Source: a virus. From it: a stretch of DNA of 35,942 nucleotides. Under the pieces are notes generated by a model. It was given only the letters and a program-made list of their open reading frames with translations, ran no database searches and was not told the DNA's origin. The position numbers were made by a program, and so were the translations under genes. Within the stretch, counting starts at the first letter, position 1. Every line of letters starts with the position of its first letter. The DNA lies in IMG/VR virus record IMGVR_UViG_3300009184_000014, positions 1 to 35,942 of that record. The stretch is one strand, 5' to 3'. Shown here piece by piece: positions 571 to 32,505 of the stretch.

Positions 571-2325
571 TTAAGCCACTATCCAGTTTGTGCCGTTATA
601 AAAAACAGGGATTGTTACTGCGCCACCACCAACAACAGTAGAGCCATAAGTAGGTGCTAAAGCATTGGTGACATAAGCCCTCATGCCTGTTACGCCTGTA
701 GGTAAGGTAGCTACTGTGTAGCCTGTGGTTTGTATTACGCCTGTAAATATTGTTGATTTATTAGTGTTGTTCCAGTATTGACTATAATTACCATCGCCAT
801 CAGATAACACAACATAATTACTTGCTGTGCGAATATCTAAACCACCTTGATTGCCTGTGTAAGCACCTAAAATAGAATTTTTACCGCCTGTAGTTATTGC
901 AAACCCTGATAACGGGCCGACAAAAGTGCTATATGAACTTGTTGTTGTACCGTATCCAGCTACAGCACCGACAAAAACATTGTAACTTCCCGAAGTGTTT
1001 GAATTTGCAGACCTTTCACCAATATATACATTTTCAACACCAGTTGTGTTTCCTAATCCAGCTTGATAGCCTACAAAAATATTGTTTTGAGAAATTGTGG
1101 TGTTATAGCCAGCTTGAAAACCAACAGCAGTATTTTGATAGCCTGTTGTGTTTTTATTTAATGTTTGATATCCATTTGAAACATTGCTAAAGCCAGTTGT
1201 GTTTGTCGCAAAAGCACTATTACCAACAACCGTATTTGTATTTACAGCACCACTACCAAGACCTACAGTCAAAGTATTTATATTGGCATCGCCAGTAAGA
1301 ATTACTCCAGCCTTATCTTCATAAGCCATGCTACCTAAATACTGGTTTAATGGGATTTGGCTAGGGGAAGAACCTACATCAGCCTGTGATACAAAGTTAT
1401 AACCATTTTCTTTCATTACCCCACTAACCATAGTGTAGGTAGAATTTCCCGCTAAAACTCCAGCGTTGTTGTACTGAATTTGAGTATCAGAGCCACCAGC
1501 ACCAGCCGCAGGGCTTCCCCATGTAGGAGTAGCACCACTACCAGCAGAGGTTAATACTTGACCGCTAGTGCCAAAGTTAGTAGTGCCTGTAATATTAGTG
1601 TTTAGTCCGATAGCACCACTAGCATTGATTACATGGGCTTTGTTTCCTGTTGTTCCCCAAGCTAAATAAGTCTTGTAGCCGTTGCCCGAACCATAGGTAA
1701 TATCACCATCGTGTCCTGAATAGTAAATGCCGTTATTAAGGCTAAAGTAATCGCTAGGAGTTCCACTACTAAACACAGAGGAGTTCATGCCAAACTCACC
1801 ATAGTAGGTAGAATCTGTGCCTAAATCGTTACTGACTGCAAAGTTTGTAGAAGCACCAGCAGTTCCACTCTTGTTTTGCATTACATTCTGTAGATAGCTT
1901 CCTGCTACTGTTGCGCCATTGGTTTGCGCAGAATTTGAAGCGTTGTAGCTTAAAACAGGGGTAAGGTTACTAGCAGAATTAGTCGCTAGATTGGGTACAG
2001 TTACAAGCCCATTGGAATCTTGGTATACCGATTTTCCTGCGGGGTAATCACAAAATACATTCTTTGTGCCACTTGTAAAGCTAACTTTAGACCCTGTGCT
2101 AGACGCTAGGACTGTATCCCTTGAGATACTGCCTGCGCTAACTGTTCCAATACCTACTTCCCATTCTGTTGTGTTGGGGTTTTCAATAGTGTAGTAAGTC
2201 GTGTTGGTATTGCCGATTGCGTTTGAAAAGGTGTCAAAGCCTACTACAGCACCCTTTAGCGTAAACGAGCCTGTGCCTGTGGTATCAGATGTTTCTAGTA
2301 CCCTGTCTTTAAGGATTAATGCCAT
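571..2325 (-). CDS. Tail fibre / adhesin with YadA-head-like repeats
   Basis: 584 aa; the ATG overlaps the portal stop as TAATG. The N-terminus (MALILKDRVLETSDTTGTG, then EWEVGIGT and ISRDTVLASS) matches a domain frequently found at the start of phage fibre or appendage proteins, likely the virion anchor. The middle is Thr/Ser/Asn/Gly rich. Roughly residues 360-480 contain a series of short repeats of the type NTAVGFQAG, NIFVGYQAG, NVYIGERSA, NVFVGAVAG, resembling the left-handed beta-roll head repeats of trimeric autotransporter adhesins. The C-terminus (APTYGSTVVGGGA, FYNGTNWIVA) is a small domain often seen at fibre ends. A receptor-binding trimer is likely; the ligand is unknown. Confidence 0.85.
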   Translation of the reverse strand: MALILKDRVLETSDTTGTGSFTLKGAVVGFDTFSNAIGNTNTTYYTIENPNTTEWEVGIGTVSAGSISRDTVLASSTGSKVSFTSGTKNVFCDYPAGKSVYQDSNGLVTVPNLATNSASNLTPVLSYNASNSAQTNGATVAGSYLQNVMQNKSGTAGASTNFAVSNDLGTDSTYYGEFGMNSSVFSSGTPSDYFSLNNGIYYSGHDGDITYGSGNGYKTYLAWGTTGNKAHVINASGAIGLNTNITGTTNFGTSGQVLTSAGSGATPTWGSPAAGAGGSDTQIQYNNAGVLAGNSTYTMVSGVMKENGYNFVSQADVGSSPSQIPLNQYLGSMAYEDKAGVILTGDANINTLTVGLGSGAVNTNTVVGNSAFATNTTGFSNVSNGYQTLNKNTTGYQNTAVGFQAGYNTTISQNNIFVGYQAGLGNTTGVENVYIGERSANSNTSGSYNVFVGAVAGYGTTTSSYSTFVGPLSGFAITTGGKNSILGAYTGNQGGLDIRTASNYVVLSDGDGNYSQYWNNTNKSTIFTGVIQTTGYTVATLPTGVTGMRAYVTNALAPTYGSTVVGGGAVTIPVFYNGTNWIVA

Positions 2326-4649
2326 TATTTAACCCCTACAATTTTGCCGTTTTCGTCACGAATAACTGTTTTCGGTTGGGCAATCTTTTCATACAAAGCA
2401 GAAATCATTTGCGCCAACTGTTGATTATGCAGTTGTAACTCTTGTAAGGCTGGCTCTAGTGGATGTTTTACCATATCGTACCCCATTATATCTTGTAACA
2501 ATTTAGCTGTTTCTACATTAGCGGTATAGGCAGAAGAACCATCGTCTAGTCCTGCGCCAATTCTAGCAGTTTCTATCTTATTAGCGTTATTTAGGTAGGC
2601 AACAAGAATCTCTTTATTGTTGTCTAACTCTGATTTTTTCTCGCCAGCAGTAATCTTCATCTGCTCTAACTGGGAATTGGAATCTGCTTCACGCTGATTA
2701 CGCTCATTTTCCAGTTGGAATTTAAGCTGATTCTCTTGTGCTTGGTACTCTTGCTTGGCCTTCTCAAGTTCCATCTGCATCTGCATCTTTTGTTGCTCAA
2801 GTTGCATATTCTGTTGGGCTTGTGCTTGTGCGGCCTGCATCTTGGATTGCTCAATCTGCATCTGCATCTGCATTTTTTGTTGTTCAGGACTTGGTGGTTT
2901 GGGTTGTCCTTCTGCTTGTTTAGCTTGTTCGCGGAACTTGTCAGCAGTTTCGTCAATGATTCCCTCAAGACCTTTACCACACTTAAACGCAGTTACGGCA
3001 AACTTTAACATTTCCATCAACATCGGTGTAGCTTCAGGCACTTGTGATGCCATCGGTACGGCTTGTTGAAAGAACTGACCCATAGCGGATAAGAACTCCA
3101 TCCTGTCAGCTTTTTCTTGCTGTTCGTCTTGGAATATCATCGAATCGCTAGTGACTTCCACGCGGAAGTTCTTGGCGGCTTCGTTTCTTAATAGTTGTAA
3201 AGCTTGTGGGATATGCTGTTGGTCACTCTGACTTAACTGCATCGCGCCCGAAATCTTGACAATCGTATCGTCTGTAAAGTGGTTACAAATGATTTGCGCC
3301 TTGATGGACAGCAGTTCTGTAGCAAAGTCTACGACTGCGTGTTGCATAGTCTTTAAGCGACCTGCCGCGTTGTTAGACTTAATAATCTGTGCGCCAAGGG
3401 TTTCGTTGGGGTCAGTCTGTCCACGCTGAATATCAGCGATACCCATAATCTCGTAGATTTGACCCTTGACCTGATCCATAGCCTGATAAGCCATAGTCAA
3501 TGCGGCCGCGATAGGTTGGATGTCTACTATATTGATAGCACCTTGCATACCCTGTTTCTCTGCAAACGCGCCCCAGTTCTTAACTGGAATTAATGTATTG
3601 TTTTCGCCTTCGGAGAACAGACGGGCAAGACTAGGTTCAGAAGCGTCATAGACACCCCGAACTTTCAATGCTTGTATAAACCCGTCTATACGGTCAGCCA
3701 ATGTGTCTAGCTGTCTTGCTTGGTCTTGGTACAGAACAAAGTCAGGGATAGGCTCAAGCTTATCGCTGGTCAATGTAGCGTACAAAGGTTTAGGGCATGG
3801 CCAAAAGTTTTCTAACTTAAGTGGGTCAGGTCTTGTGTCTAGGATTTCGCCCATAGACTTGGATAACCAAATAACTTCGCCTGTAGTCTTATCCCAAATT
3901 TCGTATACACAAGCTTCTGACGCGCCTTCGCCCATCTTCTCGTTGTAAGTCTTTGAATTTTCAGGCTTTGTATCAAGTGGAATCTTGCCGCCAAGTTCCT
4001 CGCCAAAGCGTTCTACTAGGGCAGGTCTGCCCATATAGACCTTACGCCATACGGCTGTTACTTCTTCCCATGTCCTAGCAATGGTATGACCAAAGTCACG
4101 CCAGTAAACATAGTCAACAGGGGCGCATTCGTACTCAATTCTTTCTTGATCTTCACGATGCATACCGCCTTCGGTTTCAGCTTCGTCAATATCTTCTGTT
4201 ACTTGGAAGCCATCATCGGGTACATCAGCACCTTCTATCTCATCTTCTTTAGCCTTGCCAGTAATATGTGGCTCGTAGCGCACCCAGCTAGTACCACGAC
4301 CACCAAGCAAGCGATCTTGTACAGACTGATTCATTGCAGACTTGTAGTCACCGTAGTGGGTGATCTCGTAGTCTAATGCTCGCTCTAACATCATTGATGC
4401 AACACGGGCTATTGGATCATTATCGCGAAATTTACGACTTACATCAGGTCTTGGCAGTCTTGCAAAGATAGCTGGGGTAATGGTTTGGACATTACTCCAA
4501 AGGATATTAAACTTGGCGTTAGGGTTGTTTCTAGTACGACTGTCATCCCTGTATCGCTTGATAATTCTATCTGTACGACCTTCCCATTCCTTGAAGCTAC
4601 GCTCGTAGCCTGCGATGGTGTTATACCAATCTTGGTATGTATGATCCAT
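2325..4649 (-). CDS. Portal protein (P22-like)
   Basis: 774 aa, close to the large P22-type portals (about 725 aa). It forms the dodecameric ring at the capsid vertex through which DNA enters and leaves. The N-terminal half has typical portal features: NILWSNVQTITPAIFARLPR, followed by repeated references to DYEITHYGDYK and RGTSWVRYEPH. The last third is an extremely Gln/Met-rich coiled coil (about residues 590-690, QKMQMQMQIEQSK and similar), consistent with the C-terminal helical barrel of P22-like portals. It follows terL by 2 bases and overlaps the fibre gene by TAATG. The repetitive Q-rich coding stretch creates several spurious open frames on both strands. Confidence 0.9.
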   Translation of the reverse strand: MDHTYQDWYNTIAGYERSFKEWEGRTDRIIKRYRDDSRTRNNPNAKFNILWSNVQTITPAIFARLPRPDVSRKFRDNDPIARVASMMLERALDYEITHYGDYKSAMNQSVQDRLLGGRGTSWVRYEPHITGKAKEDEIEGADVPDDGFQVTEDIDEAETEGGMHREDQERIEYECAPVDYVYWRDFGHTIARTWEEVTAVWRKVYMGRPALVERFGEELGGKIPLDTKPENSKTYNEKMGEGASEACVYEIWDKTTGEVIWLSKSMGEILDTRPDPLKLENFWPCPKPLYATLTSDKLEPIPDFVLYQDQARQLDTLADRIDGFIQALKVRGVYDASEPSLARLFSEGENNTLIPVKNWGAFAEKQGMQGAINIVDIQPIAAALTMAYQAMDQVKGQIYEIMGIADIQRGQTDPNETLGAQIIKSNNAAGRLKTMQHAVVDFATELLSIKAQIICNHFTDDTIVKISGAMQLSQSDQQHIPQALQLLRNEAAKNFRVEVTSDSMIFQDEQQEKADRMEFLSAMGQFFQQAVPMASQVPEATPMLMEMLKFAVTAFKCGKGLEGIIDETADKFREQAKQAEGQPKPPSPEQQKMQMQMQIEQSKMQAAQAQAQQNMQLEQQKMQMQMELEKAKQEYQAQENQLKFQLENERNQREADSNSQLEQMKITAGEKKSELDNNKEILVAYLNNANKIETARIGAGLDDGSSAYTANVETAKLLQDIMGYDMVKHPLEPALQELQLHNQQLAQMISALYEKIAQPKTVIRDENGKIVGVK

Positions 4650-4651
4650 AT

Positions 4652-6001
4652 TTATATCCTGCGAATAGTTTGTTTAGGTGTCATTTTCCACATTTCGTCA
4701 AGCGTTACATCCGTTTGGCCGACATGAAGTCCTTTGATTCTTGTGTCCTTAAGGATAGGGCTATCCTCGTCTTTCCATACAATTGAAAGATACCGCATTG
4801 CGTCTGCCGAATGGCTGGTGAAATCGTGTTTTGGGCGATCCCTAAAACATTTCTTATCGTCATCCCATTCCCTTTGATATTGACGCAAACATTCGATACC
4901 TTCTTCGCATCTATTATCGAACCAAGCGCGAGTTAATGCAAGCCTTGTTGCCTGTATTCCATCCTGAATTGACAGATTTGGAACAATTTTAAAGTGTTTT
5001 ATGTCAATTTTTGTCGCAAATTGTTCGATTATGCTCTTGCCACCCGATGCCATAGTTTTGGCTCTAGCGTCATGGGGCAGGTAATGGTAGCCGTACTTGT
5101 ACCCAAACTCATCCTCTTTTTGGGCGAGTAGTCCTGTGTAGTAGGGGATGGCTTGACCGTTAGATGAGTGATGGTCTAGCACCCGTATCTCACCGTACAC
5201 CACCTGAAACCACCATATTGAGGTGCTATCGTTGAAGCCCAAATCCCAAGCAGTATGGCAAGGAAACATAGGGTCGTAGTCAACGGTAGTAATACGCTCC
5301 AAATCTGTGATCCTACGCATTTCTTGACCATAGTACGCCCCTAAAATAGCCGCTTCAAATGAGCATAAAAACTCTTGCTCGTACTGGTTGGATGACATAG
5401 ACTGCTGGGCATCCAGTAGTTCAGCATCGGGCAGTAGCCCTGAATGGTCAGCCCGTAAGGTTTTGACATACCAATTAGGGTTCTTTAGACCCTCGTTATA
5501 GATGTCATAGAAGGCATTGTGTCCCTTTGGTGTACCGATAAAGGTAGCCCATCCCTGCCTGTCTGTAAGCAATGGCCTAACAATCTCACCCCACAGTCGG
5601 GGCTTCATGTCTGCGTACTCGTCTAATACCACGCCATCAAGATAAAGCCCACGCAAAGCGTCAGGATTATCAGCACCAAACAGTCTAATTTTTGCTCCGT
5701 TGACAAGTTCCACCCACAATTCTGATTGATTAGCCTTAACAATGGCTGGTTCTGCAAATTTTAATAAATAGTCCCACGCGATATTCTTGGCTTGTGCGTA
5801 ATATGGTGCAATATAGGCGTACCTGCCATCAGGCTTATTCTCATGTATTGCCCTACGAATAGTGTCGCAGATGGTAGCGACTGTCTTTCCTGCGCGCCTG
5901 TGGCAGACCAGTACAGCCCAGCGTTCCTCGCGCCTATGAAAGTCAAGGAAAGCTTCCCTAGCCTTGTAGGGGTACTCGTATCTTTTAACTACCTCAATCA
6001 A
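4652..6001 (-). CDS. terL: Terminase large subunit
   Basis: 449 aa packaging motor and nuclease. The ATPase half shows Walker A CHRRAGKT (residues 33-40) and Walker B GVVLDE (D127, E128). The nuclease half has acidic residues expected for the RNase H-like fold: D253 and D258 in TAWDLGFNDST, and D400 in HSADAMRY. The start is TTG at 6001, since an in-frame stop lies a few codons upstream and no ATG precedes the conserved N-terminus; it overlaps the terS stop by 8 bases, suggesting translational coupling. The order terS-terL-portal is typical. Circular permutation of the assembly would fit headful packaging, which is inference. Confidence 0.95.
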   Translation of the reverse strand: MIEVVKRYEYPYKAREAFLDFHRREERWAVLVCHRRAGKTVATICDTIRRAIHENKPDGRYAYIAPYYAQAKNIAWDYLLKFAEPAIVKANQSELWVELVNGAKIRLFGADNPDALRGLYLDGVVLDEYADMKPRLWGEIVRPLLTDRQGWATFIGTPKGHNAFYDIYNEGLKNPNWYVKTLRADHSGLLPDAELLDAQQSMSSNQYEQEFLCSFEAAILGAYYGQEMRRITDLERITTVDYDPMFPCHTAWDLGFNDSTSIWWFQVVYGEIRVLDHHSSNGQAIPYYTGLLAQKEDEFGYKYGYHYLPHDARAKTMASGGKSIIEQFATKIDIKHFKIVPNLSIQDGIQATRLALTRAWFDNRCEEGIECLRQYQREWDDDKKCFRDRPKHDFTSHSADAMRYLSIVWKDEDSPILKDTRIKGLHVGQTDVTLDEMWKMTPKQTIRRI

Positions 6002-6314
6002 GGAACTTGTGTTCGTGAACTATTGTTACTGGCTCATCCTGTGGGCTAGTGTGTTCTGTCCTAGATAGTTTAGGCACATGGAACTCTGCTACCTGCATTA
6101 AACAATCAAATGCTACTTTAGAACCAAACTTTTCATTGTTAGCAATGTCATCAAGCCATGCTTGTAGCCTATCAGCGTTGTTATCAACAAAAGCCGCAAA
6201 TGCTAATCGAGCCGCGCCCGTAGCTTTGTTAGGTGTACCAGCTTGTCTGCCCCCAGTTTTGGGTGATCCTTTAAGCTTGCCACCTTTTCTAGGAGTTTCT
6301 ACTTTAGATTGCAT
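5994..6314 (-). CDS. terS: Terminase small subunit
   Basis: 106 aa. The basic N-terminus with KTGGRQAGTPNKATGAAR is a common signature of small terminase subunits and related packaging proteins; it is followed by a helical segment (AFAAFVDNNADRLQAWLDDI) and an acidic-to-basic C-terminal tail. The family recognises phage DNA and hands it to TerL. ATG at 6314; the stop overlaps the TTG start of terL. The assignment rests on the motif plus position directly upstream of terL. Confidence 0.85.
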   Translation of the reverse strand: MQSKVETPRKGGKLKGSPKTGGRQAGTPNKATGAARLAFAAFVDNNADRLQAWLDDIANNEKFGSKVAFDCLMQVAEFHVPKLSRTEHTSPQDEPVTIVHEHKFLD

Positions 6315-6355
6315 ACCTTATCCAAGTGGTTGATTAAGATAGGTTAATTGTAGCG

Positions 6356-6523
6356 TTATTTATGCTTTTTGGCTAACTCTTTAGCAATCATATCTTTACG
6401 AGTTTCTTTGCCGTGCTTACTCTCAACATTTTTATTAAGAGCGTCAGCAAATTCATGTACCCAATCAGGTATAGGTTTCTTATCTCCTATCCAATTTGAT
6501 TTATTTTCCAATTGTGCCTTCAT
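6356..6523 (-). CDS. Small basic protein of unknown function
   Basis: 55 aa starting MKAQLENKSNWIGDKKPI and ending ELAKKHK. Its ATG lies 23 bases inside the 3' end of the zeta-like kinase gene, and its stop is about 40 bases before terS. Charged (many Lys, Glu) with a predicted helical C-terminal half. I do not recognise a family. The tight overlap with the kinase gene makes a functional link possible (for example an antitoxin or regulator), but nothing in the sequence demonstrates that. Confidence 0.6.
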   Translation of the reverse strand: MKAQLENKSNWIGDKKPIPDWVHEFADALNKNVESKHGKETRKDMIAKELAKKHK

Positions 6524-7577
6524 AAGTTTCCTTACTTATTTTACCAGTTTTAAATTCATTTTCTAAAGCATCGCGCAATTTTGTACCCATTTCATCGGAA
6601 TTAAACATGGGCAATTCTTCCAATGAAGATGCCCTAGCTTTGCCTTTACCAAAGGTATTGTTAATAACACCGATACTGACATTAGGGTTATCTTTGTATT
6701 GTTCCATAAGTTGTGGAATTACTTCTCTTACACCTACATGGGTTTTTAAATGTTCTTCAATAGGTACGGTGCGGCCTGAACCTAATTCTTGTTTCATGCG
6801 TTCAGCACGGGTTAAAGCGCCTTCTGTCAAAGATTCAACAGGATCGCGATATACATACACAATATTGACATTACGCCCTGATTCTAGGGCTTGGTCTATC
6901 TTTTTAGTAGCTGAATCCAATTTATTTAAATTAGTATCGTAAATTATTTCCGCTTGTTTGCTTAAACTTGGAAACGCATTTTCTAATGCTGTAGTCTTTC
7001 CTGCTCCTGTGCCACCACCAGTAAACAATACAGTTGAGTTTGGCGCGGCAGGTTGGGCCAGTTTTTGAGCATAAAGTTGTTTAACAAAAGCACTTGCAGG
7101 CTCATGCACATTGGCTGACAAAGTGCGGTTAGCAGCATAGTCAGGGCTTAACTCTCTAGCAATGTCAGTATTTAAGACTTTGCCGCCTTTAGATTCAGCA
7201 AGCAATTGATATTGATTAACTAGGTCAGGGTATTCTTTATCTAGTCTAGTTTGAAACTTTTGACCAATGTTATCTAATGTGGGCGCGGTACTAACCGCTT
7301 TTGAAGTTCTTAATCCTTTGGCCATTAGTGCTGCTGGCAAAACCATTGCACCAATTCCTGCTAACTCACCTTGATTTTGACCTTTTGCATACGCTTCATA
7401 ATTAGGGTTTGTCAGTACACCTTGGCTTTGCATGGAAGGCAAACCTGTAGCGTTTTCTAAAAATCCAGTAGCATAACCAGCTTGACGCGGTTTATTTAGG
7501 CCAACTTGCATTTGTGGATAACCAACATAAGCTTGATTTCCGTCATTTAAACGCAAAAGTTCAGCCAAATTAGGCAT
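6501..7577 (-). CDS. Zeta-toxin-like P-loop kinase domain protein
   Basis: 358 aa. Residues 1-110 are Gly/Ala/Gln rich with a hydrophobic stretch (GELAGIGAMVLPAALMAKG), unlike an enzyme domain and reminiscent of virion or polyvalent proteins. The C-terminal 200 residues hold a zeta-toxin-like kinase: Walker A GGGTGAGKT (187-195), IIYDTN (D214) and YRDPVESL (243-250), then an Arg-rich helix and EHLKTHVGV. Classical zeta toxins phosphorylate UDP-GlcNAc and block wall synthesis, but related domains occur in large phage and plasmid polyvalent proteins whose substrate is not known. It sits in the late operon just upstream of terS. Virion-delivered effector or intracellular late function are both possible. 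Confidence 0.75.
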   Translation of the reverse strand: MPNLAELLRLNDGNQAYVGYPQMQVGLNKPRQAGYATGFLENATGLPSMQSQGVLTNPNYEAYAKGQNQGELAGIGAMVLPAALMAKGLRTSKAVSTAPTLDNIGQKFQTRLDKEYPDLVNQYQLLAESKGGKVLNTDIARELSPDYAANRTLSANVHEPASAFVKQLYAQKLAQPAAPNSTVLFTGGGTGAGKTTALENAFPSLSKQAEIIYDTNLNKLDSATKKIDQALESGRNVNIVYVYRDPVESLTEGALTRAERMKQELGSGRTVPIEEHLKTHVGVREVIPQLMEQYKDNPNVSIGVINNTFGKGKARASSLEELPMFNSDEMGTKLRDALENEFKTGKISKETYEGTIGK

Positions 7578-7726
7578 TATTTAACTTCTTTATCCAAGTC
7601 TTTGAGCTTGTTCGCAATCATCTTCCTGCGCGCAATGCGGTCAGCTTGGTTCTTTTCAAGGGTAGATTGCTTATGCTCACGCAACATAGCATCTTCTTTT
7701 TTGTATTTGCGATCCATATGCTTCAT
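7577..7726 (-). CDS. Small highly charged protein
   Basis: 49 aa, MKHMDRKYKKEDAMLREHKQ at the start, ending DLDKEVK. Almost entirely Lys, Arg, Glu, Asp: probably one long helix. ATG at 7726 overlaps the upstream stop as ATGA; its own stop overlaps the next start as TAATG. These perfect junctions on both sides argue that it is a real gene. Function not recognised; short basic proteins of this kind recur next to phage packaging genes. Confidence 0.7.
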   Translation of the reverse strand: MKHMDRKYKKEDAMLREHKQSTLEKNQADRIARRKMIANKLKDLDKEVK

Positions 7727-7908
7727 GCTTTTTCCTCAATGTACTTGCCGTAAGCTTCTTCTAACTTGGCTTTTCTTGCGCCTTTGGCGTTTTCACGCTC
7801 AACATTTAAGGCAATAGCAGTAGCTTGGGCGGTACTTTTACCTGCCTTTTTCTCTGCCTTAATGTTTTTGCCGACAGATTCGGCTGATCCTGATTTGTCG
7901 AGTGGCAT
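7723..7908 (-). CDS. Small conserved phage protein of the DUF6496-like type
   Basis: 61 aa: MPLDKSGSAESVGKNIKAEK at the N-terminus, then KSTAQATAIALNVEREN. This pattern (MPL...GKS...V..NI..E...GK...QA.AIAL) is common in tiny phage proteins found near packaging and structural genes. Function unknown. It starts 2 bases after the upstream stop and overlaps the next gene by ATGA. Confidence 0.75.
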   Translation of the reverse strand: MPLDKSGSAESVGKNIKAEKKAGKSTAQATAIALNVERENAKGARKAKLEEAYGKYIEEKA

Positions 7909-7910
7909 GA

Positions 7911-8240
7911 TTATTCCTTTGGTATTGAAAAAAACCTATCACCAAATTGGCGTATTTCAAAACCTTTTGGTGCTGTTTCGGTTATATGTTGTTGCTCACC
8001 TGCTACTGCTTTGTGCCAAGTAGGGTGTTGAACGCCTTTAAGCATCATGTAGCTTTCGGCAGGTAAATTGTATTGTTCTATGTATTGCTGTGGTGCTGGT
8101 GCTACTGAACCCCAATGACCTGCATTTACACCTGTTCCTGTGCCACCCATACCATTAGCTTTAGCTGTTTCATAATCGTAGTCTGACCCATACGGATCAA
8201 ATTTACGCAATGCTTGAGCCATATCAATTGGATTAGCCAC
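7911..8240 (-). CDS. Conserved phage hypothetical protein (virion-associated type)
   Basis: 109 aa. The motifs FDPYGSDYDYETAKANGMGG, NAGHWGSVAP and SYMMLKGVQHPTWHKAV resemble short domains seen alone or at the ends of large proteins in many betaproteobacterial phages. The start chosen is GTG at 8240, two bases after the upstream stop; an ATG at 8223 would remove five residues. Its position next to the zeta-like kinase gene suggests the two may correspond to parts of one larger protein in other phages, which is inference. Confidence 0.65.
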   Translation of the reverse strand: MANPIDMAQALRKFDPYGSDYDYETAKANGMGGTGTGVNAGHWGSVAPAPQQYIEQYNLPAESYMMLKGVQHPTWHKAVAGEQQHITETAPKGFEIRQFGDRFFSIPKE

Positions 8241-8242
8241 AA

Positions 8243-8602
8243 TTAACTCTTAAATTTAAGTAGGTAGATGGTGGTGTCGATTTCTTGCGCGATGTTATCG
8301 ATCAATTGAACAATCTCTGAATCTTGTGGCAAGTCACCCCTAGCGTCTTTTACAAATGCTTGTAACGACTGTAGGTACGCCAATGGTTCTTTTGGCTGGT
8401 GGTATGTGCTAGGAAATTGGGTAATCTGACCATAGATGCCAAAAAAAGTTTCCGCCAAATCGTCTGTGAGCGATATGATGCGCTCGTAAAAACCGCCTAA
8501 AGCCTTGTGTTTAGCGTAGGACTTGGTAGCCCAATGGAAAAAATGGGCATTTGTCCCCGAATGTAGCAATGTTGCTAGGAATAAAGCCATCGATTTTTCC
8601 AT
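8243..8602 (-). CDS. DUF5856-like (Dps/ferritin-like helical) protein
   Basis: 119 aa, all-helical pattern. Residues HFFHWATKSYAKHKALGGFY followed by DLAETFFGIYGQ resemble the DUF5856 phage family and, more distantly, the Dps fold where His, Asp and Glu residues in the first helices bind iron. Whether metal is bound is unknown. The ATG at 8602 has an ideal ribosome binding site (AGGAG, 6-base spacer). It follows the VRR-NUC gene by 22 bases and heads the run of late minus-strand genes leading to the terminase. Confidence 0.65.
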   Translation of the reverse strand: MEKSMALFLATLLHSGTNAHFFHWATKSYAKHKALGGFYERIISLTDDLAETFFGIYGQITQFPSTYHQPKEPLAYLQSLQAFVKDARGDLPQDSEIVQLIDNIAQEIDTTIYLLKFKS

Positions 8603-19558: not shown

Positions 19559-21529
19559 TTAAACAATAGAAGTAGCAACAGGAATACCTTGCAAATATAA
19601 ATTTGAAGTAGTTGTAGGATATGGATTATATGAACTAATGCCGTAAGTTCCACTCAAAAATAAATTAATGCCCGTAGTCATTGAAGTTGGAACTGGTGTG
19701 TTAATGGCACTAGCAGAACCACCTGATACGCTGATATTCATTGTAGAAGATGTAGGGTCGTTTTGAACTAGACCGCTAGTACCTAACAAAATCACTTTAC
19801 TTGAAGAAACTAAATAAGTTGAACCAGTAGTTCCATACCCAGCATTAAGCGTTGCACCATTTACTGTTAAATAATTGGTAGAAAGCTGTGTTTTTGCTTG
19901 GTAAGAAGTAGAAGTATTAGCCAATACACTAGCTGTGCCAGCGTTAGTTACATCATACACACTACCATTTTGCAATATTTTGCCAGTACAGTATGTCCAG
20001 CCTTGCTGTCCTGAAATTCTATTAGCACCTGCACTTTCAGCATCACTAGCTGTTGTTCTTGCGCCTTGAGTAAATGTGTTTGCAGATGGGGTGCAAGACA
20101 CATATCTAGCGGCAATAATAAAGGTAGTTAAACTTGTTCTAACGCTACTAGCTATAGCTTGAAATAATGTATTACTGGCAGATTGAGTATAAGTTACTGA
20201 TGTCGTACCTGTTACTGTACCACCACGAATATGGGTATAATAAGTAGTGCCACAACAACCTATAGCTTGCGTAAACTCACAACCATACGCATAAGCACTA
20301 TTACTTCCTAAATAAGCTACATAAGGCCCACTAGCAGTATAACTGCCTTGGCTTACTGTATTTAATGCCGAAGCATAAAGTATTCCACCTGATACAGATA
20401 AACCAAAACTACCTAAAGTATTTCCTGAACCCATTGCTACCAAAGCGTGACCAGCATTATCTGTGTCCCAAGCAAAATTGCTATAAGAAGTGGCTACAAC
20501 AGTTATTTTATTGCCAACAGTAAAAGCACCTGTTGTGGTGTTTACAGTAAATAGCGTTGCGTAAGTTGCAGTTTGACCTGATTCTGTGTATACATAAGCA
20601 AAGTTAGTGCTATCTAATCTAATTATTACACCACTTGTATAAACACTTAAATTAGATGGGGCTACCATATAACTAGAACGAGGAATAAGCGTAGATGGGC
20701 CTGAATAACTGGCAAGTAAAGCTGGACTATTTTGAAAATACCAAACACCTGTTGCTGTTGCAATAGAGGTAATATTTAATGTATAGCTTCCACTTGATGG
20801 CAAATATTCACGAATAGTTCCACCAGTATCTTTTATAGCTAAAGCTAATCCTGTTTCATTTGAAATAACAAAGTAGCCTTGACCAGTAACTAAAGTAGTC
20901 ATATCAGGCATAACAATGCTAGGCAAATAAGGAACAGTTGTATCCAGCACAACACGAATATATTGATTGCTTGCAGATGTTAATGTTGCGCTAGGACTTG
21001 CAGTAGACAAAGTTACGGTAGTAATGCCACCTCTTACATTTCCTGTTGCAGAAGTCCAAGTAGTTCCGTTAGAAACTAATACATTGCCTGACGCGCCAGC
21101 AGAAGTTAAACCAGTACCACCTTGAGAAGCCGCTAGTGCAGTAGTTAAACCTGTAATAGAAGTAATGTCGCTATTTGCGCCTGATTTAGCCGCGCTTAAA
21201 TTAGTACGAGAAGTAGTAGTGTTAGCAACATCAGAAAGGTTATTAGCTTTTAAAAGGCTCAATGCTAAATTTGTAGTGTCGGCAGTATCTACATACAATT
21301 TGGTAGCACCATCTGTATCGAGCGTAGGGGTAGCAAGATTAATAATCTTATTGCTATTTAAATTTAATGAGCCAGTTATTGGTGTTTGACCATCCGCGGC
21401 TACAGAGCCAGTTAAAGCACTAGCAATATCTGTAAGCGTTGAATTAGCCCATGTAGAACTAATTGTGGTGTTAGTAACTACTGGGTTACCAGCAGGTAGG
21501 GAATAAGTCCCCGATCCGTTTCTACTCAT
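19559..21529 (-). CDS. Third tail fibre / tailspike-like protein
   Basis: 656 aa. The N-terminus GSGTYSLPAGNPVVTNTTIS, then STWANSTLTDIASALTGSVA and GATKLYVDTADTTNLALSLL is the anchor type seen at the start of many betaproteobacterial podophage fibres. The remainder is long, Ser/Thr/Gly rich and beta-predicted, typical of a trimeric beta-structured receptor-binding stalk. Its ATG overlaps the upstream ejection-protein stop (ATGA). Separate from the two fibres at the contig junction, so this phage has at least three adhesin-type proteins. Confidence 0.8.
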   Translation of the reverse strand: MSRNGSGTYSLPAGNPVVTNTTISSTWANSTLTDIASALTGSVAADGQTPITGSLNLNSNKIINLATPTLDTDGATKLYVDTADTTNLALSLLKANNLSDVANTTTSRTNLSAAKSGANSDITSITGLTTALAASQGGTGLTSAGASGNVLVSNGTTWTSATGNVRGGITTVTLSTASPSATLTSASNQYIRVVLDTTVPYLPSIVMPDMTTLVTGQGYFVISNETGLALAIKDTGGTIREYLPSSGSYTLNITSIATATGVWYFQNSPALLASYSGPSTLIPRSSYMVAPSNLSVYTSGVIIRLDSTNFAYVYTESGQTATYATLFTVNTTTGAFTVGNKITVVATSYSNFAWDTDNAGHALVAMGSGNTLGSFGLSVSGGILYASALNTVSQGSYTASGPYVAYLGSNSAYAYGCEFTQAIGCCGTTYYTHIRGGTVTGTTSVTYTQSASNTLFQAIASSVRTSLTTFIIAARYVSCTPSANTFTQGARTTASDAESAGANRISGQQGWTYCTGKILQNGSVYDVTNAGTASVLANTSTSYQAKTQLSTNYLTVNGATLNAGYGTTGSTYLVSSSKVILLGTSGLVQNDPTSSTMNISVSGGSASAINTPVPTSMTTGINLFLSGTYGISSYNPYPTTTSNLYLQGIPVATSIV

Positions 21530-23457
21530 TTTGATTTCCTCAATGCGTCTGCCATACCTTCAGGCGTATAGTTTACTGATTCTTTAACTTGCTTTTTAAT
21601 GCCCATTTCTTTAATTTTTTCTACGCCTTGTTTTACGCCAATTACACGGGAAACAGGAAGTAAAGCAACACCATCTAAAGCTTTCATTAAAGCACTAGAA
21701 GTATTTGAATAGTTGACAGCACCTTTAAGCGGAGCATTTACATTAAGGGTAGTTTGATAAAGGTTTCTAACTTCTTCAGCACCTTTTTTGCCAAAAATGT
21801 AATCTAACTTGTTATCTTGATCAATTTCATTAAGAACTGATCTAAATTTAGCAGGCGAAACAACAGAATTACCAAAAGAATCTACATCAATAGATGATGT
21901 AACCTTGTCTTTTATGTGCTGAATTGTTTGACCTTGTAACTCTTTCCAAGCTTGTTGGCCTTCTGCACCACCCTTTTTAAGGGTTAATCCAATTGCGGCA
22001 ACATCATCCCTAGAACCATCTAAAATTGAATGTTTAAATACATCCTCAAACGCTACAGCGCGGTCTGTAGTACCTTTTTTGGTACGCAATAATTTATCAA
22101 TTGCCCCAATATCTTCAAATTGCCTAGAATATTGAGTGCGTAGTTTTCTAGCATTTTGATATAGTTCGCCACCTTTGTTTTCGGTAGCGGCATTAATTAA
22201 TTTTTTCATTTCCCCAGCGTGTAGCATTCCAACTGCATCGCTAGGGTCATAATTCATATTAATAAACTGATAAACATCTTCCATTTGATTAATAGGTATA
22301 GATTTAGTTCCAGTTGGATCATTTACCTTTAATTGCTCATCAACGGCATCCAAAATCGGGGCTAATTTTGTCCTGACAGTAGGGGTTTGTTTGGCAATGT
22401 AGGATTCTAAAAGTGCATAGCTAACAGGTTCTTGCATTTCACCTGCTTTTCTAGCTTTTGTGTAAGCTGTTTTAATGTCAGCTTTAGCTTTCTCTACTTG
22501 TTGAACCAATGCTTTGTCTACAACTTTACCTGTTTCACGCAATCCATAAGTTTCTTTACCTGTAGCATCAACATAAGCATCAAAGTTTTGCAAAATAGCG
22601 TCATTTGCTTGGGCTTTTTGAGTAATTAACGGTTTGCCAATAGTGTCAGGATATAGCTTGGCAGTTTCAGCTTCAAATTGTTGAATGCCTAGATCGCGTT
22701 CTGCCATACCTTTACTTAAAGGAACGGGTACACGCAAATTTTGAGCAGTTTCATAACGGGTTCTAGCTTCAGGAACTTCTGCCGCGCCTACACCAGCCAT
22801 TGTTGGCTCTCTACGCAAAGCATTAGCAATTTTTGATGTAACAGGCTCTACTGCGCCAACTATTCTGTTTGTAACAGGCTGTACCGATTCTTGTATTAAT
22901 TGACCTTCATTACGCAATGCTTGAGCCATGTTGTTAACAACTGGCTTAATTGAAGGCGCATTTTGAATAGCTGAAGGAATTTTGCCTATTGTAGGAATAT
23001 ATGGTGGAATTTTTGCGGCTTGTAAACCTTCACCAATAGTTCCCATAATGGCTTGTGATTCAGGAGAGCTTGGTTGATAGCTAATATTTTGTTTAGCTTG
23101 TCTGTAATATTCATCCCTAGCTTGACCGCTTGGGGCTTGACCTTGCATAGCACCTTCTACAGCACTTCTACCAAGACCATAAGCCATAGATAATGGCTCT
23201 GTGATAAGTGGCGATACAACGGCTGTAGGAACTTCGTATAAAGTTTTAACTCTATCCATCATTGTTACTGGTTTTTTAGCGGGTGCGGGTTCATAGCCAA
23301 CAATATTAGGTTTTGCACCAGCAACGGTAGGAACATCACCATAAATCGGTGTTCCAGCACTAGCTTTAGACAAATCGTATCTAGACAACAAATCTGCTTG
23401 AGTTATGTTATCAGGCACATTTTTAACTAAAACGCCATCGGGCATCCGTACATCCAT
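21526..23457 (-). CDS. Large ejection (DNA-injection) protein
   Basis: 643 aa. MDVRMPDGVLVKNVPDNITQ gives a conserved start seen in podophage internal proteins; then Pro/Gly-rich and long helical regions. No enzymatic motif is evident, and no tape measure pattern. It is the last of three consecutive genes (111, 446 and 643 aa) downstream of the adaptor region, the arrangement of P22 gp7/gp20/gp16 or T7 gp14-16, proteins ejected to form the DNA conduit. The order supports the assignment; sequence homology is not proven. Confidence 0.65.
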   Translation of the reverse strand: MDVRMPDGVLVKNVPDNITQADLLSRYDLSKASAGTPIYGDVPTVAGAKPNIVGYEPAPAKKPVTMMDRVKTLYEVPTAVVSPLITEPLSMAYGLGRSAVEGAMQGQAPSGQARDEYYRQAKQNISYQPSSPESQAIMGTIGEGLQAAKIPPYIPTIGKIPSAIQNAPSIKPVVNNMAQALRNEGQLIQESVQPVTNRIVGAVEPVTSKIANALRREPTMAGVGAAEVPEARTRYETAQNLRVPVPLSKGMAERDLGIQQFEAETAKLYPDTIGKPLITQKAQANDAILQNFDAYVDATGKETYGLRETGKVVDKALVQQVEKAKADIKTAYTKARKAGEMQEPVSYALLESYIAKQTPTVRTKLAPILDAVDEQLKVNDPTGTKSIPINQMEDVYQFINMNYDPSDAVGMLHAGEMKKLINAATENKGGELYQNARKLRTQYSRQFEDIGAIDKLLRTKKGTTDRAVAFEDVFKHSILDGSRDDVAAIGLTLKKGGAEGQQAWKELQGQTIQHIKDKVTSSIDVDSFGNSVVSPAKFRSVLNEIDQDNKLDYIFGKKGAEEVRNLYQTTLNVNAPLKGAVNYSNTSSALMKALDGVALLPVSRVIGVKQGVEKIKEMGIKKQVKESVNYTPEGMADALRKSK

Positions 23458-30396: not shown

Positions 30397-30412
30397 GGTA
30401 CTATTAAGTACC
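30397..30412 (-). other. Short hairpin over the capsid stop codon
   Basis: GGTACT-ATTA-AGTACC (6-bp stem) spans the major-capsid stop at 30404-30406. In mRNA this could protect the 3' end of the capsid message or affect translation of the downstream decoration gene. Weak evidence only. Confidence 0.35.
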
Positions 30413-31384
30413 TGTCAAAACACCTTGTAGGAATGAGTTGGAGCAAGTTAAATTGCCCGCCCAGCCATACAATTTAACGATTGCGTCCTGATTGATCGAC
30501 TGACGCTCGCCACCGATAGGAACGAAGTTACGCTCTTTGTGTGGGCGTAGGAAGATGTAATTGGTGTTCAAGAAGTACATATAAGTTGCAGTTTCTTGTG
30601 CGCCATAACCACCGCCTAATACCACATCAGCAGACATACCACCACCATAGAACTTCAATGATGCAAAGCCAGCCGCGCCTTCTTCAACACCAGCAATACG
30701 CTGGATAGCTTGCAAAGAAGCTACATAGCGTGAATACAGGGTGTTACCAGCAACGATCAAGTCAACTTTGTCTGTGCCACGAACAGATTTGATAGCGGCA
30801 GAAGTCATAGCGGCTTGAATCAATGCGGCAGAATCCGCACCTGTGGAAGATTGGTTTTGCCAAAATGTCCAGTTTGCACGGTTAATACCACCGTATGTGC
30901 CTGTGGTATTTGAAGTCGGGCAGGCCGCGGCCAATCCAGTTATGTTTTTTCCGCCATTACCAGTACCATCGCCATAAATGTCACCTGAAATACGGTTCAA
31001 TAAACGGGCTTCAGAAACTTGCATACGACCATCTAACAAGTCAATGATTGCTTCTTTAGAACTGTTCTGCAACATTTCTAAACCACTCATTGTTACAGAA
31101 TCAGCATATTGAGTAATGCTGAACTGTGCCGCAGAGATAGGGCTATCAGGGGTGATGTTCAATACTTCATAACCGCTATATGAATTAGCGTTGTTAGTAT
31201 TTGGATCGTTGTACATGATTTCTTGCAAAATCACATTACCACCTGAAAATGGTTGTACATTACCTTTAGCGTTCAAACGCTGAAGGATCGCATTGTTTTG
31301 TGTTAAGTTATCTGCCAATACACCGCTACGACTTTGAATGGTGGTAGCGATAATATCGGTGATTGCTGAATTAGCAAATGCCAT
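30404..31384 (-). CDS. Major capsid protein
   Basis: 326 aa. MAFANSAITDIIATTIQSRS, then VTMSGLEMLQNSSKEAIIDL, GRMQVSEARLLNRISGDIYG and YIFLRPHKERNFVPIGGERQ are typical of HK97-fold phage capsid proteins. The size and place (after scaffold, before a small beta-rich protein) recall the arrangement in Bordetella BPP-1-like podophages. Start ATG with AAAGGA upstream. Confidence 0.85.
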   Translation of the reverse strand: MAFANSAITDIIATTIQSRSGVLADNLTQNNAILQRLNAKGNVQPFSGGNVILQEIMYNDPNTNNANSYSGYEVLNITPDSPISAAQFSITQYADSVTMSGLEMLQNSSKEAIIDLLDGRMQVSEARLLNRISGDIYGDGTGNGGKNITGLAAACPTSNTTGTYGGINRANWTFWQNQSSTGADSAALIQAAMTSAAIKSVRGTDKVDLIVAGNTLYSRYVASLQAIQRIAGVEEGAAGFASLKFYGGGMSADVVLGGGYGAQETATYMYFLNTNYIFLRPHKERNFVPIGGERQSINQDAIVKLYGWAGNLTCSNSFLQGVLTGT

Positions 31385-31407: not shown

Positions 31408-32505
31408 TTAAACCCGACCACTCTCTGCTTCTGACAATTGAGCCATTAACACAGAGCGTCTATCCTTTGCATCTGTTTTAGACACCTGACCGCTAGGAGT
31501 AACGGACTTCGGACTAACAGCAGTTGCTTTAGCCTTTGCTACTTGTTGTGCTTTAGATGCTTGATTGCCTGCTGATTTTAGGAGTTTTTCCTGTTCCAGC
31601 CGATAAGCTTCATCGTTCATACGCACAGCTTTTGCATAAGCCGATTCAAGGTCTTGGGCTAAACCTCGCTCAAGTAATTGAGCCATATCTTCCCTAACCA
31701 TATCAAAGTGCGGAAACCGCGCTCTGTCACTACTTACTCGACTGATTTCTTGGGTCAATCGAGCGTTTTCTTCTTGCTCCCGAATCTGCGACAGTTGCGC
31801 AACTTGTTGCTGTGTAGCTTGAAGTTGTTGCATTAACTGTTGTTGATAAGGGTCAACATACGCCTGTTCAGGAGTTTGTATCGCATTTTGATCTAATTGT
31901 ATTCCATAATCTTGTGCAAGTCTATGAAACATCTGTACTTTTTGGTCATACGGTGCTTTAGACAAAACCATGTGGGCGCGACCAAGATTATTAATCCAAG
32001 CTACTGGGTGGATTCCTTGTTGTTGCAGTTCAGGAACAAACGGGCCAATGGCTTGGGTTAATTGTCTTGCGTTGTCAGCTTCAGCTTTGTAGGCAGATAC
32101 ACCACGCTTGTATTCTGCTTCGCGTTGGTTAGCGTATTCAGCAAACTTAACAAACTCTTGTTGGTTTAGTGGTTTGCCACCCTTCATCTTTTCCCAAACC
32201 TCTACATACTCTTTTTTCCATGTAGTTGGGCGCGATGGACTTACATCCGTTTCAGTTTTAGAACTATCTTCTGCCACCAGTTCAGGTTCTTCAAAACTAT
32301 CTTGATCGGTGCTATCGCTGGTGTCGCTACTCTTTTGGGTTTTGAAGCGACCTTTTTCGTCACGGTCGTTGCTTTCTTCAGAACTGGTTTCTTCTTGGAT
32401 TGGATCGTCATTTACTTCTATCTCCTTTTCGATAGGTGCTTCAAGTGTGCCTTCTTCGGCTTGGTCAAGTGCGGCTTCTAGTAACTCTCTACGATCTTCG
32501 CTCAT
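31408..32505 (-). CDS. Scaffold protein
   Basis: 365 aa, very acidic N-terminus (MSEDRRELLEAALDQAEEGT), long Gln-rich helical centre (QQQLMQQLQATQQQVAQLSQ) and basic Ala/Lys-rich C-terminus. Directly upstream of the major capsid gene with AAGGAG before its ATG. Typical of phage scaffolds that template and leave the procapsid. Confidence 0.85.
   Translation of the reverse strand: MSEDRRELLEAALDQAEEGTLEAPIEKEIEVNDDPIQEETSSEESNDRDEKGRFKTQKSSDTSDSTDQDSFEEPELVAEDSSKTETDVSPSRPTTWKKEYVEVWEKMKGGKPLNQQEFVKFAEYANQREAEYKRGVSAYKAEADNARQLTQAIGPFVPELQQQGIHPVAWINNLGRAHMVLSKAPYDQKVQMFHRLAQDYGIQLDQNAIQTPEQAYVDPYQQQLMQQLQATQQQVAQLSQIREQEENARLTQEISRVSSDRARFPHFDMVREDMAQLLERGLAQDLESAYAKAVRMNDEAYRLEQEKLLKSAGNQASKAQQVAKAKATAVSPKSVTPSGQVSKTDAKDRRSVLMAQLSEAESGRV

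Follow-up and report, generated by a model that had tools for sequence, protein, structure and literature searches.

Introduction

The closest described counterpart of the kinase studied here is ng_zeta1 of Neisseria gonorrhoeae (structures 6epg, 6eph, and 6epi), for which the published description gives Asp56, located ahead of the P-loop, as the catalytic residue, Lys115 as the P-loop lysine, and Lys59 and Asn75 as substrate contacts (PMC5923241). Zeta-like kinases have also been placed in conjugative elements and in phage MuF fusions by Iyer et al. (2017, PMC5512222), whose account predicts injection for polyvalent proteins, which are encoded by phages and by conjugative elements. The internal proteins of T-even phages are diverse injected proteins that a common short targeting peptide directs into the scaffold core (PMC3012670). 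In a P22 system that is engineered rather than natural, a piece of the scaffold takes fused enzymes into the capsid (PMC9962691).

We analyzed a viral sequence of 35,942 nt (IMG/VR record IMGVR_UViG_3300009184_000014; hereafter the window) that encodes a zeta-like kinase. The kinase gene is one of the alleles found at a polymorphic cargo slot, which in a freshwater podovirus-like clade lies between a small gene, p49, and the terminase genes, an architecture that the original prediction for this DNA had missed. Compared with ng_zeta1 as described in the text cited above, the phage kinase is alike in fold, P-loop lysine, and pre-P-loop aspartate; it lacks the C-terminal OB domain, adds a leader, and by alignment carries serine in place of Asn75. 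No epsilon_1-type partner was found for it, and a partner gene lies downstream. The slot resembles polyvalent proteins in its late or virion neighborhood and in its ART-PolyVal and PBECR payloads. Its proteins differ in having one leader and usually one payload at one fixed swap site, and in a scaffold-like tail that goes unmentioned in the accessible portion of PMC5512222. Slot effectors would work much as T-even internal proteins do, but the phage type is unrelated, and the slot tag is similar to the ends of the scaffold itself and stands apart from the leader. The tail would likewise act as the scaffold piece does in the P22 fusions.

Results

Kinase gene and its surroundings

A 358-aa protein with a GGGTGAGKT P-loop had been predicted among tiny overlapping genes near the terminase, and the window bears this out. 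The ORF at 6501-7577 (minus strand) encodes 358 aa with this P-loop intact and matches Pfam Zeta_toxin (E = 1.2e-14; 54.6 bits, cut-off 22.3). Its start overlaps by 1 nt the gene p49 (7577..7726, minus strand), a constant gene that forms the 5' edge of the slot, and p49 in turn overlaps by 4 nt the constant upstream gene p61 (7723..7908, minus strand; phrog_2423). Farther upstream on the same strand are p109 (7911..8240), a small protein whose start, MAQALR, is like that of the leader, and a DUF5856/Dps-like protein (8243..8602; Pfam 2.6e-19, phrog_858) that serves as a constant upstream marker. The 3' end of the kinase gene overlaps by 23 nt the gene for p55, a kinase-linked partner (6356..6523, minus strand). 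A programmed frameshift joining kinase and p55, which lies in the +1 frame, was considered and is unsupported, as judged from coordinates only.

The tiny overlapping genes, including the kinase gene, lie just upstream of the terminase. The putative small terminase (TerS; 5994..6314, minus strand), called by position only, forms the 3' edge of the slot and is followed by the terminase large subunit (TerL; 4652..6001, minus strand; phrog_2, 4.3e-39) and the portal (2325-4649; phrog_12082, 9.8e-180). Between slot gene and putative TerS is a conserved intergenic block (6315..6355, minus strand), a possible recombination flank or regulatory site; similar blocks follow the stop codon of slot genes with differing payload types. 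The kinase gene is thus placed among late and virion genes, as is typical of polyvalent proteins; the window protein consists of a leader and one catalytic domain rather than several disparate catalytic domains per chain. Neither PADLOC nor NCBIfam gave a useful match to the window kinase or to those payloads that were searched.

A kinase domain of the zeta-1 type

The predicted structure and database comparisons assign the kinase domain, residues 100-358 (6504..7280, minus strand; Pfam, PDB phmmer/hmmsearch, AF2, VIA), to the gonococcal zeta-1 subfamily. A phmmer search of the PDB matched residues 116-354 to the Zeta_1 toxin 6eph (E = 1.9e-10). In an AlphaFold model (AF2; 26 aligned sequences), residues 100-358 mostly had pLDDT values above 90, and the leader mostly below 50. 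The solved fold closest to this model by VIA-align was ng_zeta1 chain 6eph_B (Z 27.0, 2.3 Å over 246 residues, 20% identity), against Z values of 12.0 for the classical zeta toxin 1gvn and 11.5 for AvrRxo1-ORF1; Foldseek gave 6epg (8.2e-15). The C-terminal OB domain is absent, the kinase ending opposite residue ~270 of the 401-residue PDB entry.

Alignment with ng_zeta1 places Asp56 at D138 and Lys115 at K194, and D138, R141, and K194 are invariant in 26 of 26 relatives. Together with the fold, these conserved catalytic residues give strong support to the zeta-like kinase originally proposed. The aligned substrate contacts are conserved among relatives but different from those of ng_zeta1: Lys59 corresponds to R141 and Asn75 to Ser154. 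Because Asn75 is replaced by an invariant serine, the substrate may differ from that of ng_zeta1. Two further expectations, an N-terminal region unlike toxins and the absence of a classical epsilon antitoxin, agreed with the searches: the N-terminal ~97 residues had no Pfam match, and no epsilon-like antitoxin was matched among p49, p55, and p61 in Pfam or PHROGs.

The same kinase domain was also observed inside large proteins of 737-3057 aa (L184, L185, L191, L231-L236, and L238), on phage contigs and in proteobacterial or other MAGs, with no obvious conserved small partner gene.

A polymorphic slot bounded by p49 and the terminase genes

With the full-length protein as query, 16 loci were found on viral contigs; in 11 of them the match was confined to the N-terminal region (inside residues 4-107), and the C-termini were different proteins. 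This N-terminal part, leader module N1, comprises residues 1-97 (7287..7577, minus strand) and starts M..LAELLR; ~92 aa of it are common to relatives' proteins with other C-terminal domains (11 aligned sequences, 61-88% identity to the first). A search with N1 recovered 31 loci, redundant copies included, and one of these (L002) matches the window exactly in every gene compared. Six of the 31 (L002-L006 and L019) carry the kinase as payload, and N1 also heads slot proteins with unrelated C-terminal domains. TerL lies downstream in 29 of the 31 (exceptions L024 and L033). p49 was matched in 26, alongside at least eight payload types, and was for that reason rejected as the kinase's antitoxin or partner, a role in which a test of it had been proposed.

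Polymorphic toxin systems likewise have a constant N-terminal part and swapped C-terminal domains. They differ from the slot in being bacterial and in not being placed in a phage virion.

A terminase-relative survey kept 80 loci out of 599. In 43 of these both p49 and putative TerS were recognized, so that the slot could be scored (37 could not be scored), and in 11 of the 43 nothing lay between the two genes. These empty slots bear on the idea that a late kinase depletes cell-wall precursors as infection ends and so aids lysis, for which its late position and the lysis of E. coli by ng_zeta1 (PMC5923241) could be cited. A slot that is empty in a quarter of scorable loci (11/43), and that elsewhere holds ART, ParB-like, or unrecognized payloads in the same place, makes such a role highly improbable. 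We know of no lysis role for ART, ParB-like, or unrecognized slot payloads.

Among 82 distinct slot ORFs of at least 150 aa, 52 were clustered, all but one of them chosen by their leader motif, so presence of the motif in this set is no evidence; those left out included, for example, methyltransferase-like genes. The 52 proteins fell into eight leader clusters and 16 payload clusters, and seven of the 16 payload clusters were found with at least two leader clusters. The kinase domains of L002 and L041 are 60% identical over 267 aa and follow unrelated leaders, and the same holds for the payloads of L011/L102 (76%), L024/L038 (73%), and L022/L055 (71%). Payloads of the ART-PolyVal family were matched in L053 (2e-9, above its cut-off) and L014 (8e-7, just below), L040 had a weak ParB-like match, and many payloads matched no known family.

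In other loci (L065-L076, L101, L107, and L110), the slot region holds ParB/DNA-methyltransferase-like genes (..PYAKNSRTH..) that replace, or stand beside, the leader-bearing protein.

Leaders and the internal-virion-protein position

In a count made without regard to the slot, a leader motif within the first 40 aa was present in 11 of 608 genes from 11 genomes (shuffle mean 3.0); slot proteins made up six of the 11. One leader has a counterpart among probable virion genes of the window. The N-part (22909..23280, minus strand) of p643 (gene 21526-23457) is homologous to the kinase leader of L041 and L140: blastp with the L041 leader gave E = 5.9e-7, and hhalign with the L041-type leader gave a probability of 99.1% (E = 7.2e-19, 96 columns). 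p643 shares a cassette with p349 (phrog_6121, virion structural protein), and by synteny its position is that of internal virion proteins in the annotated Pelagibacter phage Skadi-7. With N1, hhalign showed no homology to p643 (E = 0.19), and the virion link therefore comes from the L041-type leader; nor was homology found between N1 and that leader, and tblastn of N1 against annotated phage genomes gave no match at E ≤ 10. In genome G009, a leader of similar style is fused to PBECR5 (2.2e-22), and this gene lies between tail genes inside the virion cassette.

A motif resembling the leader start, A[ENQ]ALR, was also seen inside p643 homologs and between domains of large slot proteins (window p643, at 22810-22836, and loci L043, L068, and L082). 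It could be a processing site.

A C-terminal tail shared with the presumed scaffold

Many slot proteins end in a tail, a short basic stretch in which [STD]R[KR] precedes a run that seems to be amphipathic. Eight of the 16 payload clusters carry it in cis; the other eight, including the kinase, do not. By eye, the tail resembled the ends of a 365-aa protein encoded immediately upstream of the major capsid protein gene (MCP; 30404-31384, phrog_9953). We presume this ORF (31408..32505, minus strand) to be the scaffold from its position, which is that of the annotated scaffold of Rhodoferax phage P26218; the presumed scaffolds had no confident PHROGs match and no family match of their own. The motif is found on the minus strand at both its N terminus (DRRELLEAALDQ, 32461..32496) and its C terminus (DRRSVLMAQLSE, 31429..31464).

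The likeness, spotted before it was tested, was then scored with a 12-position profile built from 18 effector tails of eight payload clusters and weighted by payload cluster. Scaffold, p49, and p55 sequences were kept out of the profile, which was applied to the ends of 608 genes from 11 genomes. At the N terminus, the top seven of the 608 were all presumed scaffolds, which within one clade are related and so not independent. The C-terminal top scorers were slot-region small proteins, one slot effector, p55, and the presumed scaffold, whose C terminus took ranks 4, 6, and 8-12 in seven of the 11 genomes and scored low in the other four (ranks 66, 67, 212, and 271). Among 23 families with at least six members each, the scaffold family had the highest mean at the N terminus (12.2, next 0.6) and at the C terminus (8.1, next 4.8 for p61). 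In 3000 column-permuted profiles the N-terminal score was reached 0 times, the C-terminal score three times, and both together 0 times. With profiles made from either half of the tails alone, the scaffold was still first at the N terminus and first or second at the C terminus. It was also the top N-terminal match in all of five further clade genomes, where its C terminus scored high in one genome (13.5) and less in the other four (3.5-7.7).

Other comparisons delimit this likeness. Plain Smith-Waterman comparison of single scaffold ends did not single out slot proteins within genomes, and reciprocal searches from scaffold ends gave mixed results, mostly not slot proteins. Outside the clade, the motif was absent from the scaffold-position proteins of P26218 and MW202489 (p47), and in four other kinase-carrying phages (G022-G025) no protein end reached 11 when all ends were scored without picking out the scaffold gene.

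Leader and tail might be nothing but recombination flanks left by homologous exchange of accessory genes, with no packaging role, and the slot does swap between constant p49 and the conserved intergenic block. Slot tails, however, are 92% identical as 12-aa peptides and 78-83% identical in nucleotides, with differences at synonymous sites, so that the peptide has been kept while its codons differ. The motif is also present at either end of the presumed scaffold, whose gene is remote from the slot, and the same payload occurs with unrelated leaders. We therefore regard mere flanks as improbable.

p55, a tail-bearing gene linked to the kinase

p55 ends in a scaffold-like tail (TRKDMIAKELAKKHK, 6359..6403, minus strand) with a profile score of 14.3, which was reached by 0.016% of shuffled C-termini. 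At all 11 distinct clade kinases, a small gene starts 3-22 bases before the kinase end (one at 31, counting the longest start), and its tail score is 10.7-18.9, against at most 5.9 for the kinase itself. The 55-aa neighbor, which had been proposed for testing with the kinase, is thus linked to it. More widely, 75 of 80 viral kinase loci (80 kept of 111 found) have a small ORF that overlaps the kinase end or lies next to it (the partner-helix regular expression used in this survey was composed after the sequences had been seen), and in five of five Acidobacteria loci (L242-L246) a stand-alone kinase is followed by an overlapping ORF of 63-65 aa, possibly an uncharacterized chromosomal two-gene module. 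Because of these counts, we consider a partner gene to be the rule for this kinase. The layout is like that of effector-chaperone or toxin-antitoxin pairs.

A partner-helix profile ranked p55 fourth of 260 window ORFs, and 10 of 1000 permutations did equally well. The profile failed on other p55-like proteins; the likeness of the p55 helix to the partner helix of other phages was weak, and homology of p55 to those partners was not established by it. Our reading of the sequence is that p55 may join a kinase-binding part to a loading tail.

The kinase could instead be a zeta toxin with p55 as its antitoxin, forming a toxin-antitoxin or abortive/superinfection module that acts in the infected cell and is not packaged. 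The small ORF at the kinase 3' end in viral and Acidobacteria loci and the overlapping two-gene layout fit such a module. It would leave unexplained the scaffold-like tail, the leader, which is shared with ART, PBECR, and ParB-like payloads, and the fact that one leader is homologous to a protein in the internal-virion position; the behavior of the partner-helix profile also counts against it. We judge this explanation unlikely, if less so than lysis or mere flanks.

Elsewhere, a ParB-like payload was observed with its own downstream small gene (~60 aa) behind two unrelated leaders (L011:2033-2233 and L102:5484-5681). Private partner genes may be common for slot payloads.

Interruption of the capsid gene in relatives

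In three relatives (L226:2213-2455 in G003, L249 in G014, and L250 in G004), a conserved element of ~235 nt splits the MCP gene at one shared codon (~54); it contains stops and a hairpin that seems to covary. The MCP gene of the window is intact. The element looks like a small self-splicing intron. Rfam gave no match at gathering score for L226 and L228 and no fitting match at E ≤ 1 for L249-L251.

Discussion

We propose, with a probability of roughly 0.58, that the kinase is an effector of the polyvalent-protein type, loaded into the virion and injected, which receives a scaffold-like loading tag in trans via p55. Loading into particles and injection are suggested because p55 ends in a tail common with the presumed scaffold. 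Lysis timing, superinfection control, and virion carriage with injection had all been offered as roles for a late kinase. The last appears the best supported of the three, given the homology of one relative's leader to a protein at the internal-virion position, the scaffold-like tail, the swapping of payloads, and the late operon; the first two gained no specific support.

Slot proteins, as we picture them, would consist of a leader, a payload, and often a C-terminal tail. The kinase would be made late, together with virion proteins, and held by translationally coupled p55, whose scaffold-like tail would recruit it into the procapsid, other payloads carrying the tail in cis. It would then stay in the head, be ejected with the DNA, and in the new host phosphorylate UDP-sugar envelope precursors, the toxic activity that marks the ng_zeta1 subfamily, or a related nucleotide substrate, thereby acting early as a host-directed effector. 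A further possible role of p55 is to keep the kinase inactive in the producing cell.

To our knowledge, the loading of host-directed effectors into the heads of small podoviruses has yet to be explained, and in titles and abstract openings (subscription journals lying mostly outside the search) we found no published account of the slot or tail. A broader idea, which we hold tentatively and at less than even odds, is that podovirus-like phages possess a natural cargo-loading code. A tail like the scaffold's ends, copied or convergent, would bring interchangeable injected effectors into the procapsid, acting in cis on ART and other payloads and in trans, via p55, on the zeta kinase, and leaders derived partly from internal virion proteins would route the effectors out with the DNA. 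The novelty, if this is true, would lie in a natural tail that resembles the ends of the scaffold and serves swappable payloads both in cis and in trans. It would also yield a testable rule, that a tail-bearing or p55-bound protein should enter the capsid, and it would make the tail a sequence handle for finding injected effectors not yet recognized.
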